A DNA stretch of 64,000 bases, taken from assembly GCF_020622065.1 (NCBI RefSeq), contig NZ_JAHRYQ010000001.1:372001-436000 (forward strand), given 5' to 3'. Source of the stretch: Geothrix sp. (lineage in GTDB: Bacteria > Acidobacteriota > Holophagae > Holophagales > Holophagaceae). Below are positions 7,713-25,959 of this stretch, one piece after another. Each line of letters begins with the position of its first letter. Position 1 is the first letter of the stretch. A program made the translations under genes and the position numbers. The notes beneath the pieces are model-generated. The model made no database searches and had not been told where the DNA came from. It saw only the letters and a list, made by a program, of their open reading frames with translations.

Positions 7713-8474
7713 CTACCAGACCAACCGCTCGTCCTGGGTCAGCAGGCGCACGCGGGCATCGCCCAGGGCCTCGAGCTGGGGCAGCATGGTGGCCTTGTCA
7801 CCGGGGGTGAGGTGATAGATCCTCACCGGCACGGCGCGGCTGAGTTTGGTGAGTTCGGCGCCCAGTTTGGCGGGGGTGAGGTGCTTGGAGGCTTCCGCCA
7901 GCCAGGCCTGCTCATTGGGGAAGCTGGCCTCCGTGATGACCAGCCGCAGGTTCGGCGTAGCGTTGGCCACCTCCCAGATGCGGTCGGTTTCGGCGGTGTC
8001 GCTGGTGAAGATGAAGGCGTCCTTCCCGTCGTCCACCTTGTAGCCCACGCAGGGCACCAGGTGGTTCACGCGGATGGGGGTGATGTGGAGGCCGCACACA
8101 TGGTACGAGCGCTCAGGCTCGACTTCCGTGTAGCGGATGGTGGGATCGTTGGGACTGGGGATCACGCTGAAATCGGGCCACAGCTCATCGTTGAAGAGAT
8201 GGCGCCGCAGCACATCGAGGGTCTCGGGCAGAGCGTGGATCTCCACGGCCTCGTGCGTGTGGCCGAAGATGTTCTTGGTGAAGAAGGGCAGCGTGCAGAT
8301 GTGATCCAGGTGCGAGTGGCTGAGGAACACATGCTGGATCTTCACCTGCTCAGCCACCGTCAGGGCGGCCGTGATGGAGCCTGCGTCGATGGCCACGCAG
8401 CCGTTCACCAGCAGCCCCGTCAGGCGCTCGCCGTCGGCTTCCCCGCCACTGCAGCCCAGGATCCGGAGTTCCAT
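7713..8474 (-). CDS. MBL-fold metallohydrolase, class II phosphodiesterase-like
   Basis: The 253-residue protein has the metallo-beta-lactamase zinc motif HSHLDH (about residues 52-57), an early LGCSGG strand, a second His in VNHLVPCVGY, and SDTAETDRIWE carrying the bridging Asp. The pattern resembles class II 3',5'-cyclic-nucleotide phosphodiesterases and RNase Z-like members. A substrate cannot be fixed from sequence; cAMP phosphodiesterase is one possibility. It lies downstream of, and on the same strand as, the beta-barrel gene, separated from it by a terminator. Confidence 0.75.
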   Translation of the reverse strand: MELRILGCSGGEADGERLTGLLVNGCVAIDAGSITAALTVAEQVKIQHVFLSHSHLDHICTLPFFTKNIFGHTHEAVEIHALPETLDVLRRHLFNDELWPDFSVIPSPNDPTIRYTEVEPERSYHVCGLHITPIRVNHLVPCVGYKVDDGKDAFIFTSDTAETDRIWEVANATPNLRLVITEASFPNEQAWLAEASKHLTPAKLGAELTKLSRAVPVRIYHLTPGDKATMLPQLEALGDARVRLLTQDERLVW

Positions 8475-8507
8475 CGTCCCTCGGAGAATGAGCCTCCATC
8501 ATACGGA

Positions 8508-8533
8508 AAAGGGGCGCTGGAAAGCGCCCCTTT
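8508..8533 (-). terminator. Intrinsic terminator of the beta-barrel gene
   Basis: AAAGGGGCGCT (8508-8518) pairs perfectly with AGCGCCCCTTT (8523-8533). On the minus strand it ends in a short U-run, 19 nt after the stop of the outer-membrane protein gene. Confidence 0.8.
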
Positions 8534-8551
8534 CACGCCCGGTGGCTCAGG

Positions 8552-19083: not shown

Positions 19084-20334
19084 ATGTCCACCGCACCTCT
19101 CAAGGCTGATCTCCGGCATGTGACCTACGCGCTTTCGGACGCGCTGGATCTGGTCGGCCTGAATGATGTCGGCCACGGCAAGCGGGTCGGCATCGTGGCC
19201 TACGCATGCGCCAGGCAGAAGGGGATGAGCGAGGCGGAGGCGACCTTCCTCTTCGACCTCGGCCTGCTGCACGACATCGGCGTGTCCTCCACCGAGGTCC
19301 ACCGCAGCCTCCTGGCGGAGTTCGACTGGGTGGGCTCTCCGCTGCACTGCGAGATCGGCTACCAGCTGCTGCAGGCCTTCCCGCCCCTGGCTGCCCTGGC
19401 GGTGCCGGTGAAGTACCACCACACGCGCTGGGACCAGGTCCCCACCTCCGGGGTGGGGCCCATGCAGGCGTGGCAGGCCAACCTGATCTTCCTGGCCGAC
19501 CGGGTCGACGCGCTGGCCGCGCCGTTCCACGGGGCGGGCACGGTGCTCCTGCACACCGGGGAGATCCGGGCTTTGATCCAGCAGCGTTCCGGGACCTTCT
19601 TCGCTCCCGAGCTGGTGGAGCTGTTCCTGGAGGCCTCCCGCTCCGAGGCGTTCTGGCTGCGCCTGGAGCCCCGCTCCGTCCAAACCTTCATCCAGGACAT
19701 CCTCGACCAGGGGGCGAGCTACGAGGCCTCCATGGGGGACCTCCGGCAGCTCGCAGAGATCTTCTCGCGGATCGTGGACGCCAAGAGCCCCTTCACGGCG
19801 GAGCATTCCCTGGGGGTGGCGGGACTTGCCCGGCTGCTGGCGGAGCGGTCGGGGCTGAGCGCCGACAGCTGCGCCAAGATCGAGATCGCCGGCCTTCTGC
19901 ACGATGTGGGCAAGCTCCGGGTTCCAGACGGCATCCTGGACAAGCCCGGCGCGCTGGATCAGCAGGAGCGGCAGATCATCAACACGCACAGCTTCGAGAC
20001 CTACCAGATCCTGCGCCACATCAAGGGCTTCGAGGAGATCACCCCCTGGGCCGCCTACCACCACGAGGAACCCGGAGGCAGCGGCTATCCCTTCCGCCTG
20101 GACGGCAGGACCCTGCCCATCGAGGCCCGTCTCCTCCGCGTGGCGGACATCTTCCAGGCGATGGTGCAGGACCGGCCCTACCGGAAGGGCCTGGACCGCG
20201 AGCAGGCGCTGGGCTTCCTGGAGCACCTGGTGGCCGCGGGCCGCCTGGAACCGGAGCTCGTGTCCCTGGTCGCCGCCTGCGGCGAGGAGGCCATGATCGC
20301 TGCGCAGCCGGGCCTGCGGACCAGCGCAGGCTAA
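19084..20334 (+). CDS. Tandem HD-domain protein with C-terminal HD-GYP
   Basis: The 416-residue cytoplasmic protein has two HD domains. The first (about residues 20-165) has LLHDIG and KYHHTRWD. The second (about 220-400) is HD-GYP: AEHSLGVAGLAR, GLLHDVGKLRVP, NTHSFETYQIL, YHHEE and GSGYP. HD-GYP domains hydrolyse cyclic di-GMP (or cGAMP), and the GYP motif is complete apart from the family variant GSGYP. No receiver or membrane sensor is fused, so the first HD may be regulatory. It is preceded by an AT-rich promoter-like stretch and followed by a terminator. Confidence 0.85.
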   Translation: MSTAPLKADLRHVTYALSDALDLVGLNDVGHGKRVGIVAYACARQKGMSEAEATFLFDLGLLHDIGVSSTEVHRSLLAEFDWVGSPLHCEIGYQLLQAFPPLAALAVPVKYHHTRWDQVPTSGVGPMQAWQANLIFLADRVDALAAPFHGAGTVLLHTGEIRALIQQRSGTFFAPELVELFLEASRSEAFWLRLEPRSVQTFIQDILDQGASYEASMGDLRQLAEIFSRIVDAKSPFTAEHSLGVAGLARLLAERSGLSADSCAKIEIAGLLHDVGKLRVPDGILDKPGALDQQERQIINTHSFETYQILRHIKGFEEITPWAAYHHEEPGGSGYPFRLDGRTLPIEARLLRVADIFQAMVQDRPYRKGLDREQALGFLEHLVAAGRLEPELVSLVAACGEEAMIAAQPGLRTSAG

Positions 20335-20937: not shown

Positions 20938-20945
20938 GTGTTTGG

Positions 20946-21017
20946 TAGTCCCAAGGGGAATCGAACCCCTGTTCCCGCCGTGAGAGGGCGGTGTACTAAC
21001 CGCTATACGATGGGACC
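20946..21017 (-). tRNA. tRNA-Glu (anticodon CTC)
   Basis: On the minus strand GGTCCCA pairs with TGGGACT (one G-T), with A as discriminator. The D stem is GTAT/GTAC and the anticodon stem CCGCC/GGCGG encloses CTCTCAC, giving CTC. The T arm is AGGGG/CCCCT. CCA is not encoded. It is 20 nt downstream of tRNA-Gln, probably on one transcript. Confidence 0.93.
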
Positions 21018-21037
21018 ATCGAACAAGTTGTGAATGG

Positions 21038-21109
21038 TTGGGGAGGAAGGATTTGAACCCTCACCTGACGGTACCAGAAACCGTTGTCCTACCATTAGAC
21101 CACTCCCCA
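21038..21109 (-). tRNA. tRNA-Gln (anticodon CTG)
   Basis: On the minus strand TGGGGAG pairs with CTCCCCA, with A as discriminator. The anticodon stem ACGGT/ACCGT encloses TTCTGGT, giving CTG. The T loop TTCAAAT is normal. CCA is not encoded. Confidence 0.93.
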
Positions 21110-21204: not shown

Positions 21205-21753
21205 ATGGCGGAATCGATCAAACTGGCCTATTTCATGGCAGTCAAGGAGGGGGCGAGCTACCTGGGGGGCCTCCTGGTGACGGATACCTCGGGCATCCCC
21301 CTGGACTTCCGCTACACCGAACCGATCACGCCCACCCGGCTGCAGGGCATCCTCTACGGCAAGTCGCTGGAGCCGCACCTGAAGGAGGAGGTCATCCAGA
21401 AGACGCTCCTCAAGGAGCTGAAGGCCGCCCCGGACCTGTTCATCCTGAGCGCCTCCGAGCTGGCGGGAGGTTGGGCGGGGGACGCGAAGTACCCCGTGAT
21501 GGCGGTGCAGAAGAGCCAGGAATCCCCGTTGGCGAAGGTGGGTGATGTGTTCCGCGCCGGACCGCGGGATCTGCTGATCCAACTGGCGGAGGGGGCGGCG
21601 CCGTTGCGCGTGATGTTCGCCACCTCGGTGGATGCGGCGGCCCAGGAGCAGGCCGTGCCGAAGCTGCTGGAGGCCGGCTACCACATGGACCTCGTGGAGC
21701 CCCTGGAGCGCGTGGGCGCGGCCCTCCAGAGCCTGGTGGTGAAGGGTTCCTGA
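21205..21753 (+). CDS. Conserved-looking hypothetical protein, 182 residues
   Basis: I do not recognise this protein. It has no signal peptide or membrane segment and a regular alpha/beta composition, with strands such as YLGGLLVTD, APDLFILSA and RVMFATSVDAAAQ. The ATG at 21205 follows GGGGACGAC. Its stop overlaps the next gene by one base (TGATG), and that gene in turn overlaps the FHA-GGDEF gene, so all three form a tight operon and are likely to work in one signalling process. Confidence 0.6.
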   Translation: MAESIKLAYFMAVKEGASYLGGLLVTDTSGIPLDFRYTEPITPTRLQGILYGKSLEPHLKEEVIQKTLLKELKAAPDLFILSASELAGGWAGDAKYPVMAVQKSQESPLAKVGDVFRAGPRDLLIQLAEGAAPLRVMFATSVDAAAQEQAVPKLLEAGYHMDLVEPLERVGAALQSLVVKGS

Positions 21754-22538
21754 TGTTCGGACGGGTGAAGGAGGCGATGTCGGACGCAGCGGAAACGCTG
21801 CGGCGGGCATTCTCCAGCCTGGCGGTGGTCGAGGCCTCACCGGAGCCGTTCGTTCCGCATAGCCACGGATCCTCCGAGCTGGGCGCGGTGGTGCGGGCGG
21901 GGCTGGAGGCGCCTCGTGCCGACCTGCGGGACATGCCGCTCTTCCGGGAGGCGGTGGAAAGCCGGGCCCTGGAACCTTTCGAGGCCACGCTGAGGGCCGA
22001 GTCCGGCTGGGCCCGCTGGGGAACGGAGGCCACCGTGCTCCGCATGGCGCCGCTGGAGCCGGGCCGGGCCACGCAGGTGGGCGTTCCTCCCCTGCCGCGC
22101 AGGGTCCCGGTCGCCGGCCAGGCGGACCCGCTCGCGCGCCCGGCGGCGCGGCGCCTGTCGGATCCTCTGCTCCGGCCGGGCGTCCGGCGCCTGGATCCCG
22201 CCCTGGAGGGCGGGATGGCCCGGGCCGGGCTGGCGGCCGCTTTCGCGTTGCCGGTGCCCATCCGCGGCGAGGACATCCACCACCTGCCCAAGGGGTTGTG
22301 GATGCGGTACAGCCTCCAGCTGGTGCGGGGCACGGGTGAGAATGTCCGGAACCTCGAGGTGCTGGGCCTGTTCCGGATCCCCCGCAAGGGCGTGGCCGAT
22401 CTGCGGCATGATCCGCGATCGGGCCGGATCTTCGTCCATCTGGAGCCCGTGGCGGCCTCCGCTCCGCGCGCGCCCTTCATCCTGGCCCGGCGGAAGGACG
22501 ACGGCGCGCTGGTCAGCTGTTTCGTGGAGGAATCTTGA
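21753..22538 (+). CDS. Hypothetical protein, 261 residues
   Basis: This protein is not recognised. The first half is rich in Ala, Arg, Pro and Glu and looks poorly structured. The second half (about residues 155-261) looks like a folded alpha/beta domain (ALPVPIRGEDI, LWMRYSLQLVRGTG, VLGLFRIPRKG, GRIFVHLEPV). It overlaps its upstream neighbour by 1 nt and the FHA-GGDEF gene by 4 nt, implying coupled translation and a shared role. Confidence 0.55.
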   Translation: MFGRVKEAMSDAAETLRRAFSSLAVVEASPEPFVPHSHGSSELGAVVRAGLEAPRADLRDMPLFREAVESRALEPFEATLRAESGWARWGTEATVLRMAPLEPGRATQVGVPPLPRRVPVAGQADPLARPAARRLSDPLLRPGVRRLDPALEGGMARAGLAAAFALPVPIRGEDIHHLPKGLWMRYSLQLVRGTGENVRNLEVLGLFRIPRKGVADLRHDPRSGRIFVHLEPVAASAPRAPFILARRKDDGALVSCFVEES

Positions 22539-23473
22539 AACGGACGCATCCACCCGGACCTGCGGAACCGGCCCTGCCGGCGGCGTCGGTTTCTCCCGAG
22601 ATGCCCACGATGGTGCGCCCGAAGACGGAAGCGGAGATCTCGGCCCTGCCGGCAGAATGGGCCCTGGTGGCCTATGCGGGCGCGGCCCTGGGGCGCATCT
22701 TCCCGCTGCCGCCGGGAGAGTCGCTGATCGGCCGGGCGCCCCAGGCCCAGGTGGCGTTGCTGGATGGCGAGGTGAGCCGGCTCCATGCCCGGCTTGTCCT
22801 TCAGGAGGGACGGGTCGCGCTGGAGGATCTCGGCTCCACCAATGGGACGCTCGTGAACGGGGAGCGCGTGCGGGGGATCACCACGCTCCAGGCGGGAGAC
22901 CGCCTGTCCATCGGGGGCCATGTGCTGAAGCTGGTGGCTCTGGATGCCCTGGAGCGGGCCTTCCACGAAACCCTGCTCGACCTGAGCACCCGGGACCCGC
23001 TGACGGGCCTGGCCAATCGCAGCAGCGCCCTGTCGGAGCTGCAAACCCGGTTCGGCCTGAGCCTGCGGTACGACCGGCCCCTGTCCGTGGCGGTGTGCGA
23101 CCTGGATCGCTTCAAGCAGATCAACGACACCCTGGGCCATGGCGCCGGGGATTTCGTGCTGCGGGTCATCGGGGAGCGCCTGCTGGCCACCCAGCGCGAA
23201 GCCGATCTGGCGGGGCGCATCGGCGGCGAGGAGTTCCTGATGGTCCTGCCCGAGACCGACCTGGGCGGTGCCCTGACCTTTGCCGAGCGCCTGCGGAAGG
23301 CCGTGGCCTCGGCGCCGGTGCCCCTGCCCGGAGGCGGGCTGGAAGTCACCTGCAGCCTCGGCATCGCCGAGCGCCTCCCGGGGGATCAAGATGCGGGCCA
23401 GCTGCTGGCCCGGGCCGATGCGGCCCTCTACCGGGCCAAGGCCGGGGGGCGCAATCGCGTGTGCCAGGGCTGA
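22535..23473 (+). CDS. FHA-GGDEF protein, predicted active diguanylate cyclase
   Basis: The 312-residue protein has an N-terminal FHA phosphothreonine-binding domain (about 45-140: SLIGRAP, VSRLHARL, LGSTNGTLVNG). A GGDEF domain follows (about 155-312: DPLTGLANR, DLDRFKQINDTLGH, GGEEF). The inhibitory I-site RxxD lies five residues before GGEEF (READLAGRI). It should make cyclic di-GMP from two GTP and respond to threonine phosphorylation, perhaps by the kinase encoded 1 kb downstream. It starts with TTG, with GGAGG 5-9 nt upstream and a 4-nt overlap with the preceding gene. Confidence 0.88.
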   Translation: MKRTHPPGPAEPALPAASVSPEMPTMVRPKTEAEISALPAEWALVAYAGAALGRIFPLPPGESLIGRAPQAQVALLDGEVSRLHARLVLQEGRVALEDLGSTNGTLVNGERVRGITTLQAGDRLSIGGHVLKLVALDALERAFHETLLDLSTRDPLTGLANRSSALSELQTRFGLSLRYDRPLSVAVCDLDRFKQINDTLGHGAGDFVLRVIGERLLATQREADLAGRIGGEEFLMVLPETDLGGALTFAERLRKAVASAPVPLPGGGLEVTCSLGIAERLPGDQDAGQLLARADAALYRAKAGGRNRVCQG

Positions 23474-23517
23474 GCCAGGGCTGAGCCAGGGCTGAGCCAG
23501 GGCTGAGCCAGGGCTGA
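23463..23517 (+). repeat. Five perfect tandem copies of an 11-bp unit
   Basis: GCCAGGGCTGA is repeated exactly five times. The first copy holds the TGA stop of the FHA-GGDEF gene. Because 11 is not a multiple of three, each copy puts TGA in a different frame, so together they stop all three frames. It lies in the 107-nt gap between the two FHA-GGDEF paralogues. Confidence 0.95.
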
Positions 23518-23580
23518 GGTTGGCCGCCCCGTTTGCCCGGGGCATTCTCATTCCCCCGGCAGCCTCCTAGACTGGGAGGG

Positions 23581-24495
23581 ATGACCCCCGAACCCGAGCC
23601 GCTCGAACCCAGGCCACCCGGTTCCGCCGATGCCCCGGGGGGGCTCGGGGCCCGCGCGTGGGTCCTGGTGCGGTACATCGGCCAGCCTCTGGGCGAGATG
23701 GTCACCCTGCCCTTGGAAGGGCTGGAGATCGGGCGGGCCCCGGAATGCGGGATCTGCCTCCCGGAGCCTGAGGTGAGCCGTCGGCATGCGCGGCTCGAGG
23801 TCGCCGAGGACGGGGAGTCCCTGGCGCTGCTGGATCTGGGATCCACCAATGGCGTCTATGTGAACGGCCGCAAGGCCCTAGCGGCTCCGACTCCCGCGAC
23901 CCTCCGGCCCGGCGATGTGCTGCGGGTGGGAGGGCACGCCTTCAAGCTCAAGTGGCTCGACCCGCTGGAGCGGCGGTATCACCAGGCCCCGGAGGCGCCC
24001 TCCGCGCTGGATGCCTGGACGGGCGTGAGCAGTCGCGCCGCGGTGCTGCACCAGCTGGAGGCCCACTTCGAGTGGGCCCGCCGGCACCACCGGCCCCTGT
24101 CGGTGATCCTGGCGGACCTCGACCACCTCGGGCGCCTCAATGGGACTCACGGTGCCTCCGCCGGTGACCGCGTGATCCGGGCCTTCGGCGGGCACCTGCT
24201 CCGGCGCCTCCGGGACCGGGATTCCGTGGGCCGGCTGGGGGGAGCGGAATTCCTGGCCGTCCTTCCCGGAACCCCCTCCGAGCTGGCCCTCCCCGCGGCC
24301 GACGACCTCCGCCTGGCCCTGGCCGAGCGCGGGGTCGAGTTGGAAGACGGCCGCCTAGTCCAGGCCACCTGCAGCCTGGGCGTCGCCGATCTGAAGACCG
24401 CCGACTCCTGTGGCGGCGCCGTTCTGGCACGGGCCGACGCCGCCCTCCACCGCGCGAAGGTTGAGGGACGGAACCGCGTCGCCCAGGCGCCATGA
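23581..24495 (+). CDS. FHA-GGDEF paralogue with degenerate cyclase site
   Basis: The 304-residue protein has the same layout as its neighbour: FHA (EIGRAPECG, VSRRHARL, LGSTNGVYVNG), then a GGDEF fold. The catalytic motif is GGAEF, with Ala for the Asp/Glu that binds metal and GTP. The DxDxFKxxND region is also changed (DLDHLGRLNGTHGA). An RxxD I-site is kept (RDRD, five residues before GGAEF). It is probably not a cyclase but a cyclic di-GMP receptor or a regulator of its partner. The ATG at 23581 follows GGGAGGG. Confidence 0.82.
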   Translation: MTPEPEPLEPRPPGSADAPGGLGARAWVLVRYIGQPLGEMVTLPLEGLEIGRAPECGICLPEPEVSRRHARLEVAEDGESLALLDLGSTNGVYVNGRKALAAPTPATLRPGDVLRVGGHAFKLKWLDPLERRYHQAPEAPSALDAWTGVSSRAAVLHQLEAHFEWARRHHRPLSVILADLDHLGRLNGTHGASAGDRVIRAFGGHLLRRLRDRDSVGRLGGAEFLAVLPGTPSELALPAADDLRLALAERGVELEDGRLVQATCSLGVADLKTADSCGGAVLARADAALHRAKVEGRNRVAQAP

Positions 24496-24543
24496 GCGCC
24501 GGCGGAGAATGGATGCCATGAGTGCCCGCAAGGAATCGACGCC

Positions 24544-25959
24544 ATGAGCGCCTTGCGGCCCCCGGCCCAGATCGGCAGCGTGCGCCTGTTGGAACCCCTG
24601 GGTGAAGGGGGGATGGCCCTGGTCTTCCGCGGCGAGGATCGCTTTCGCGGCATCTCGTCCGCCGTGAAGCTGCTCCGCCCCGAAGTGCATGGAGACGCCG
24701 GCCTGGTGCGGCGCTTCCTTCGCGAAGGGGAGGTGCTCACGCACCTGTCCCACCCGCACCTGGTGGAGATCTTCGCCTTCGGGCGCAGCGGCGTCTGGCC
24801 CTACCTGGTGATGGAGCTCCTTCCGGGTGGCAGCCTGAAGGCCTGCCGGGGCGAAGCTCCGGCGGCCCTGGTCCGGCGCCTCGTCCCCATCTGCGATGCG
24901 CTGCGGGTGGCCCACGGCGAGGGCGTGATCCACCGGGATCTCAAGCCCTCCAACCTGCTCTTCGCCCCCGATGGCCGTCTGAAGGTCACGGATTTCGGGG
25001 TTTGCCTCTGGGAGGGCGGCGAGGGCCGCACCCGCGCGACCCGGAGCCACATGGTGGTGGGCACGCTGGGCTACATGGCCCCCGAGCAGCACGGCGATCC
25101 CCGCCGCGTGGACGGCCGCTGCGATGTCTATGCCCTGGGCGCCATCCTCTACGAGTTCACGACGGGCCAGGCCTATGCCCAGGTCCAGCTGCCGCCAGCC
25201 GCCGCGCGGACGGGCTTCCCTCCCCGGCTGGCGGGACTGATCCTGCGGGCCCTTCAGCCGGAACCCTCGAAGCGCCTCCCGGACATGGAGGCGTTCGGAC
25301 AGGAACTGTCCACTTGGCTGGACAGCGCCGAAGCCGCCGGGTGGGGTGAAGAACCCCTGCCGGGCTATCGGACCGTGGACCGGGAGACCGCTACCCTGGC
25401 GGGCCCGCGGGATGAATCCGGCCCCGAGGAGCGCCTGGGGCCGTACCTGGATGCCCTGGCCACGGGCCCCGTGGGCATCCGCCGATCCGCTGCCGAGGGG
25501 CTCTGCGGGGCCGCCCGGCCCGTGGATGCACCCTGGCTGCTGGAAGCGCTCGACCGTGGGCCTGAAGGCTCCCGGTTCGCCCTGGTGAAGGCCCTGGGCC
25601 GCGTGGGCGATGCCTCCGCCCTGCCGGCCATCCTCGCCCTGGTGCCCGATCCCTTCACTCAACGGGAGGCCGTGGAGGCTGCTGCCGACCTGGCCCTCCG
25701 AGCGGGCAGGGTCGGCGAGGTGCGGGCGGCGCTGCAGGAGCCCGGGCTCGGCTCGGCTTGGCGTTGGGCCTCCCGGGCGGCCCTGGGGGACGCGACCTGG
25801 GTCGAGGCACTCCTGGCGGCCTGGCCCGCCCTGGCCCAGCCTTTCCGGGTGCAGGCCCTGGAGGCCGCCCAGCGCCTCCCCTCCGACCTTCGCGCCCAGG
25901 TGAAGGCGGGGACGGCAGACGCCTCGGGGAATGCGCGCCATGCCTGGGATGGCCTCTGA
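24544..25959 (+). CDS. Hanks-type Ser/Thr protein kinase with HEAT-like tail
   Basis: The 471-residue protein carries an N-terminal kinase domain (about 10-265): glycine loop GEGGMALVF, catalytic lysine K42, HRDLKPSN at 130-137, DFG at 150-152, APEQ. No transmembrane segment follows. Residues about 300-470 are helical repeats of HEAT/PBS type (RRSAAEGLCGAA, SRFALVKALGRVGDASALPAI). It is cytoplasmic. Next to two FHA proteins, it is the natural candidate for producing the phosphothreonine they bind. The ATG at 24544 has AAGGA about 10-15 nt upstream. Confidence 0.88.
   Translation: MSALRPPAQIGSVRLLEPLGEGGMALVFRGEDRFRGISSAVKLLRPEVHGDAGLVRRFLREGEVLTHLSHPHLVEIFAFGRSGVWPYLVMELLPGGSLKACRGEAPAALVRRLVPICDALRVAHGEGVIHRDLKPSNLLFAPDGRLKVTDFGVCLWEGGEGRTRATRSHMVVGTLGYMAPEQHGDPRRVDGRCDVYALGAILYEFTTGQAYAQVQLPPAAARTGFPPRLAGLILRALQPEPSKRLPDMEAFGQELSTWLDSAEAAGWGEEPLPGYRTVDRETATLAGPRDESGPEERLGPYLDALATGPVGIRRSAAEGLCGAARPVDAPWLLEALDRGPEGSRFALVKALGRVGDASALPAILALVPDPFTQREAVEAAADLALRAGRVGEVRAALQEPGLGSAWRWASRAALGDATWVEALLAAWPALAQPFRVQALEAAQRLPSDLRAQVKAGTADASGNARHAWDGL

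Follow-up and report, generated by a model that had tools for sequence, protein, structure and literature searches.

Genes of the cassette

Five genes, here named g1 to g5, lie on the forward strand between positions 21205 and 25959 of a 64,000-nucleotide stretch of a Geothrix genome (hereafter the window; contig NZ_JAHRYQ010000001.1, positions 372,001 to 436,000; host genome 3.35 Mb). Open reading frame (ORF) calls and domain searches place the genes where the initial annotation of this region had them. The cassette is real and conserved, and although the initial annotation named no output for it, evidence from gene neighbourhoods and from patterns of presence and absence indicates a flagellar one, by way of g1. 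The features are as follows.

g1, 21205 to 21753, + strand: 182 amino acids; predicted EndoV/PIWI (RNase H-like) fold, apparently lacking the catalytic triad of EndoV; member of a flagellum-associated family (ORF, AlphaFold 2 (AF2) model, Foldseek and VIA comparisons, phyletic pattern)
g2, 21753 to 22538, + strand: 261 amino acids; predicted N-terminal helix, long low-confidence linker and small alpha/beta C-terminal domain (ORF, model)
g3, 22535 to 23473, + strand: 312 amino acids, TTG start; apparent diguanylate cyclase of FHA-GGDEF architecture, with GGEEF at the active site and RxxD at the inhibitory site (Pfam, motifs)
N-terminal tail motif of g3, E-M-P-T25-M-V-R28, 22598 to 22618, + strand: candidate phosphothreonine site for reading by an FHA domain (conservation)
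11-bp tandem repeat, 23463 to 23518, + strand: 5.1 copies, 100% identical, spanning the g3 stop codon
g4, 23581 to 24495, + strand: FHA-GGDEF paralogue with GGAEF, DxDxFKxxND lost and RxxD kept (ORF, Pfam, motifs)
g5, 24544 to 25959, + strand: 471 amino acids; predicted Ser/Thr kinase of the Hanks type, soluble, its C-terminal part made up of HEAT-like repeats (Pfam, motifs, hydropathy)

The first three genes overlap, as initially described, by 1 nt between g1 and g2 (TGATG) and by 4 nt between g2 and g3 (TTGA). The start codon of g4 is most likely the ATG at 23581, located behind a GGGAGG sequence, rather than the TTG at 23533, and therefore 107 nt separate g3 from g4; with this start, the gap between g4 and g5 is 48 nt. 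No plausible transmembrane segment was found in any of the five proteins (for g5, the strongest 19-residue mean hydropathy is 1.28).

Conservation of the cassette

There are 67 g1 loci among the genome contigs scanned with the g1 alignment, a survey that used two peptide patterns and is thus not exhaustive. They comprise 39 loci of the Holophagaceae type (L053-L091, two of which are filed under other phylum names), five from Acidobacteriota of the Acanthopleuribacteraceae type, 22 from Synergistota and one from Candidatus Muiribacterium. All five genes occur in the same order in 35 of the 39 Holophagaceae-type loci, and the grouping is thus not a product of chance. The four exceptions are two loci in which g4 is missing (L066 and L089) and two that are cut by contig ends (L082 and L085). 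Scattering of the genes in relatives, which the initial annotation had raised as grounds for doubt, was also looked for, and the genes are not scattered. Locus L064 is unusual in that g1 (8001-8549) and g2 (from 8820) are some 270 nt apart rather than touching.

Two loci from more distant Acidobacteriota (L135 and L136) have the order g1-X-FHA-GGDEF-kinase with a single FHA-GGDEF gene, and Acanthopleuribacteraceae-type loci have the order g1-X-kinase, wherein X has the same length and position as g2. Because these simpler arrangements exist elsewhere, the g3/g4 pair looks like a duplication that arose within the Holophagaceae. A PP2C-type gene is located close to the kinase gene in L046.

Literature searches, which covered open-licence papers only and are thus weak evidence of absence, returned no prior description of the cassette or of a flagellar protein with an EndoV fold. 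The component types are already known, save g1 and g2, and their combination was not found in print within the literature searched.

A kinase and two FHA-GGDEF proteins

The g5 protein carries the kinase motifs AVK, HRDLKPSN, DFG and GTLGYMAPE, and the Hanks kinase core is present in 37 of the 39 Holophagaceae-type loci, the two misses (L082 and L085) being sequences that end early. A HEAT_2 match scores 26.1 bits, just under the cut-off of 27.7. Given these features and the lack of a plausible transmembrane segment, g5 is probably a soluble Ser/Thr kinase of the Hanks type that carries HEAT-like repeats.

Pfam finds an FHA domain at residues 64-127 of g3 and a GGDEF domain at residues 152-308. 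Both GGEEF and RxxD are kept in all 38 g3 orthologues that were read, and an FHA search pattern is matched by 35 of these. Thus, g3 looks like an active diguanylate cyclase with an RxxD feedback site. The initial annotation was right that both g3 and g4 carry FHA and GGDEF domains; however, the two proteins are not equivalent, since g4 appears degenerate in this genome. In the window's species, g4 has GGAEF in place of the usual motif and has lost other catalytic residues, with the DxDxFKxxND pattern gone, but it retains RxxD. There are 36 g4 orthologues in L053-L091, of which 35 are readable (L082 is excluded by a contig end), and 34 of these have GG[DE]EF; GGAEF occurs only in L053, which is sister to the window and almost identical to it. 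We therefore rejected the idea that g4 is a pseudo-enzyme in general, and regard its decay as local. The decay may nevertheless extend further within the window's clade because the g4 of L055 does not match the DxDxFK pattern. Here, g4 may be a reader of cyclic di-GMP (c-di-GMP) or of phosphothreonine, or a decaying gene.

The N-terminal tail of g3 is highly variable, yet one Thr keeps a constant spacing from the FHA domain that follows it. This residue is present in the window and in all 37 of the L053-L091 loci whose tail could be read (all but L066 and L085), with the same spacing in 36 and a shift of one residue in the other. An Arg occupies the +3 position relative to this Thr in 36 of the 37 loci, and a Ser replaces it in L060. 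Among six genomes that lack the kinase gene, the Thr is kept in every one and the +3 Arg in none.

The closest precedents, as given in PMC6733907, are DgcB of Bdellovibrio bacteriovorus and FHA-GGDEF proteins of Myxococcus xanthus, which share with g3 the FHA-GGDEF order, a disordered N-terminal tail with a conserved Thr, consensus phosphothreonine-binding residues, GG[DE]EF and RxxD. In DgcB, the tail is bound around a Thr by the protein's own FHA domain, with +3 as a key position, and the enzyme is proposed to be activated when the tail is locked onto the FHA domain; that paper does not identify the acting kinase (PMC6733907). There are differences as well: within the same source, the +3 residue of DgcB is Val rather than Arg, and DgcB is tied to prey invasion, whereas the cassette is tied to flagella. 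Furthermore, the FHA-GGDEF gene is duplicated here and coupled to g1 and g2, and a kinase is encoded within the cassette itself. The parallel with the tail/FHA switch of DgcB suggests g5 as the kinase that acts on g3.

Thus, the path from phosphothreonine to c-di-GMP that was initially proposed is well supported as a hypothesis because the kinase motifs and the phosphothreonine-binding residues of the FHA domain are intact, because the tail has a conserved Thr whose +3 Arg is absent from the genomes without the kinase, and because DgcB offers a precedent. Two points of the proposal have to be amended, namely the treatment of the two FHA-GGDEF proteins as equals and the lack of a named output, for which the flagellum is indicated.

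Predicted fold of g1

As initially noted, g1 and g2 match no family, and this holds for Pfam, NCBIfam, PHROGs and PADLOC. When 40 members of the g1 family were searched against Pfam at E values up to 1, the matches were scattered, with no more than two members per family and no match to Endonuclease V (EndoV). However, an AF2 model of g1, built from an alignment of 40 sequences, has a predicted local distance difference test score (pLDDT) of 91.2 and a predicted template modelling score of 0.86, and its best matches in the Protein Data Bank (PDB) are EndoV and the PIWI domain (for 3hd0, Foldseek E 4.3e-8). VIA comparisons of the model gave Z 13.1 with 3ga2 (root-mean-square deviation (rmsd) 4.2, 171 residues aligned), Z 12.6 with the Archaeoglobus fulgidus Piwi protein 1w9h (rmsd 3.9, 166 aligned) and Z 11.8 with 2qh9, which we take to be a DUF99 protein (rmsd 4.0, 141 aligned). 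The similarity to EndoV and PIWI covers nearly the whole g1 chain. This suggests that g1 has an EndoV/PIWI (RNase H-like) fold. A profile match to Crov588 (6nyr), in which no single stretch exceeded the limit, was discarded as spurious and put down to the repetitive nature of that protein.

The predicted fold is thus shared with EndoV (PF04493), the PIWI domain of Argonaute and DUF99, but g1 differs from these in having no Pfam match, only ~10-17% identity, a flagellar genome context and apparently no EndoV triad. We take this triad to be Asp/Glu/Asp, corresponding to D35, E82 and D103 of the Escherichia coli enzyme. The g1 profile aligns with eight EndoV proteins only weakly (E 0.0088, probability 4.6%, through 141 columns), and it is this alignment that supplies the register. 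No acidic residue is found in any of the 40 g1 sequences at the beta-1 Asp position (D35; g1 columns 7-12), and only six of the 40 are acidic at the column aligned with D103. The triad therefore does not appear to be kept in g1, even though E82 is in register with E61, which is Glu in 33 of 40 sequences.

The invariant residues of the family are G21, F35, T38, G52, Q126, P133, E165, P166 and R169. The acidic residues D27 (38 of 40) and D34 (39 of 40) are near-invariant, and E165 is found in all 40. These positions point to a site that is different from that of EndoV, and another activity is possible. A distant g1-like gene in genome G049 (L143, 8872-9429, - strand) adjoins a large gene that, by appearance, encodes an SNF2-type helicase. 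This arrangement hints that g1 may belong to a broader superfamily whose members have further roles.

Association of g1 with flagella

There are 23 g1 loci from Synergistota and Muiribacterium, and 21 of these have at least 2.8 kb of sequence upstream of g1. The genes fliA (sigma-28) and fapA are located directly upstream of g1 in 18 of the 21 (the exceptions are L105, L113 and L118), and are usually preceded by cheD. Pfam and NCBIfam confirm the FapA, FliA/WhiG and CheD assignments for the examples tested. A sub-module of flagellar superoperons composed of sigma-28, FapA, YjfB and FlgV is described in section 8 of PMC11607428, and the Synergistota and Muiribacterium g1 genes follow fliA-fapA in the same kind of operon, whereas g1 and g2 of Acidobacteriota are found with the kinase and FHA-GGDEF genes instead. 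Neither g1 nor g2 is part of the sub-module account given in that section.

FliG (PF01706, E up to 0.001) was used as the marker for flagella; ten of its 124 matches in Acidobacteriota are weak, and none of these is from a genome with g1. A phylum sample of 396 Acidobacteriota genomes contains g1 in 34 and FliG in 124, wherein FliG is present in 33 of the 34 genomes with g1 and in 91 of the 362 without it. For 59 hand-picked genomes the corresponding fractions are 37/38 and 1/21, and the lone genome with g1 and no FliG is G049, which carries the distant relative noted above and was kept in all counts. The 185 Synergistota genomes include 114 with g1 and 127 with FliG (both in 109, g1 only in five, FliG only in 18, neither in 53), such that FliG is found in 109 of 114 genomes with g1 versus 18 of 71 without. 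Fisher tests that ignore relatedness give p values of 2e-17 for Acidobacteriota and 8e-25 for Synergistota. Since nearly all genomes with g1 have FliG and many genomes with FliG lack g1, g1 approximately marks a subset of flagellated genomes and is not a universal flagellar gene.

Relatedness was handled inside the Geothrix group only, which consists of 25 genomes (G000-G024). Here g1 is found in 14, g2 in 15 (with a partial copy at a contig end in G009) and the kinase in 16 (G009 and G020 being added), and the other nine genomes have none of the three. Six of these nine (G005, G006, G007, G014, G017 and G024) are near-complete and lack FliG. Each has a g3 orthologue at the same site, between a VanZ-like gene and YdcZ/toastrack/NrfHA, and none has g1, g2, g4 or g5. 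These six form one clade that adjoins the window's species. This pattern shows that g1, g2, g4 and g5 go as a set, and that g3 is of some use apart from them.

The g2 protein and its counterparts

The g2 model has a mean pLDDT of 62.3 and is confident only for parts of the N-terminal helix and the C-terminal domain (approximately residues 160-258); the long low-confidence linker is probably disordered. A fold search gave no match worth naming (best Z 2.7), although the fold of g2 could still be a known one, and the profile matches in the PDB were set aside as designed proteins with E values of 0.068 or worse. Protein X of the Acanthopleuribacteraceae type and a Synergistota protein, Y, occupy the same position as g2 and have a similar C-terminal pattern. 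Comparison with hhalign gave E 0.062 for g2/X, 0.056 for g2/Y and 0.015 over 12 columns for X/Y, with probabilities of 0.9-3%, and on these values we do not claim homology. Thr15 of g2 is invariant within E-T-L-R-R (residues 14-18) across 17 aligned Holophagaceae-type proteins and resembles the T-x-x-R of the g3 tail. Conceivably, this residue may be another kinase site, though it lies inside a predicted helix.

Gene junctions and neighbouring genes

Short tandem repeats are found in both the g3/g4 and g4/g5 gaps. The first has the 11-bp unit GCCAGGGCTGA in five perfect copies over the g3 stop codon (23463-23518). Downstream of it is a terminator-like hairpin (23526-23543), a kind of site of which one was found and 1.4 were expected by chance. 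The second, at the g4/g5 junction (24488-24552), is a 26-bp repeat of 2.5 copies with three copies of ATGAG[CT]GCC. Because g4 and g5 touch in many relatives, this repeat may have broken an ATGA-type coupling.

Genes for tRNA-Glu and tRNA-Gln (20943-21109, - strand) are divergently oriented just upstream of g1, and the end of the tRNA-Gln gene is found upstream of g1 in most relatives. No sigma-70 promoter-like site was found by a consensus scan. The element AAAA-N16-GCCGATGG, present 5' of g1 in most Geothrix-type loci, was considered as a sigma-28 promoter and rejected; its AAAA overlaps the expected divergent tRNA-Gln promoter, and the element is missing from other Holophagaceae genera. Further upstream, an HD-domain gene (19084-20334, + strand; HD_5 E 3e-38) likely encodes an HD-GYP c-di-GMP phosphodiesterase, given its HHE..GGSGYP stretch. 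In a tblastn survey of the 39 Holophagaceae-type loci, the near-identical L053 was the only one with this gene next to the cassette.

A proposed flagellum-linked phosphorylation module

On balance, we favour the reading that the cassette is a flagellum-linked module that leads from protein phosphorylation to c-di-GMP, with two new proteins attached. On this reading the soluble kinase g5 would phosphorylate the conserved Thr in the N-terminal tail of g3, and the phosphorylated tail would then dock on an FHA domain, which could be that of g3 itself, of its dimer partner or of g4. Docking would turn on the diguanylate cyclase of g3, as proposed for Bdellovibrio DgcB, and the RxxD site would provide feedback. 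The g1 and g2 proteins would be partners on the flagellar side, wherein g1 might serve as a binding platform with an EndoV/PIWI-like fold that has lost its triad and g2 might link g1 to other components. The output would be flagellar assembly or motor activity. A broader proposal, which we hold as plausible but short of probable, is that a non-cutting EndoV/PIWI-fold protein was recruited to the flagellar system and through descent or transfer now occurs in Acidobacteriota, Synergistota and Muiribacterium, and that in Acidobacteriota it came, together with g2, under a switch of dedicated kinase, phospho-tail and diguanylate cyclase that sets flagellar assembly or activity.

Several observations weigh against a flagellar module. 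There are five Synergistota genomes, along with G049 and its distant paralogue, that have g1 without FliG, and 18 Synergistota and 91 Acidobacteriota genomes have FliG without g1. The cassette of the window is outside any flagellar operon, FliG is on another contig, and there is no clear sigma-28 promoter upstream of g1. The joint loss in Geothrix is one event in the tree and counts once within the genus; likewise, the kinase-less genomes are a single clade, so the loss of the +3 Arg counts once and not six times. Since g3 persists in genomes with neither flagella nor the kinase, it must serve some further role or be acted on by a different kinase; its Thr persists there as well. Finally, the profile comparison does not establish that g2 is related to X and Y outside the Holophagaceae.

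Attachment and motility are both commonly under c-di-GMP control. The persistence of g3 without flagella, and the 91 of 124 FliG-positive Acidobacteriota that lack g1, could accordingly suit a general c-di-GMP switch for biofilm formation or surface attachment, in which the flagellar tie reflects a shared lifestyle, with exopolysaccharide or adhesion as the target of g1 and g2. We consider this unlikely because g1 is located directly behind fliA-fapA in Synergistota and Muiribacterium, where the kinase and FHA-GGDEF genes have no match except for GGDEF-type matches in L095. The predicted fold of g1 raises a different question, namely whether g1, instead of being a dead scaffold, represents a new EndoV-like family of active nucleases and acts on flagellar transcripts or DNA. 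The near-invariant acidic residues outside the EndoV triad (D27, D34 and E165) would be compatible with such an enzyme, as would E61 in register with Glu82, but the acidic residue is wanting at the D35 counterpart in all 40 sequences and at the D103 column in all but six, in the register of the weak profile alignment, and the proposal strikes us as improbable.

The same predicted fold, encoded beside a kinase, might also bring to mind a nucleic-acid or defence system akin to kinase-based phage defence, particularly as the kinase matches PADLOC models such as PD-T4-6 and mad6 and the distant paralogue in G049 adjoins an SNF2-type helicase gene. However, the PADLOC matches cover only the kinase domain that is common to Hanks kinases, and g1 to g4 match no PADLOC model. 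Relatives were absent from a scan of viral contigs and from plasmids, the cassette has a single stable site in the genus, and the tie to FliG is strong. A defence function is thus very unlikely in our judgement.

Bacterial Ser/Thr kinases and c-di-GMP have mostly been separate fields of study, and here adjacent genes encode a kinase, the diguanylate cyclase that is its likely target and two proteins linked to the flagellum. The kinase step that the DgcB model leaves open thus has in g5 a concrete, testable candidate in a related architecture. A new family with an unexpected nuclease-like fold would, with g1, join the known flagellar components of at least two phyla, and the cassette as a whole has the look of a system for controlling swimming that has not been studied before.

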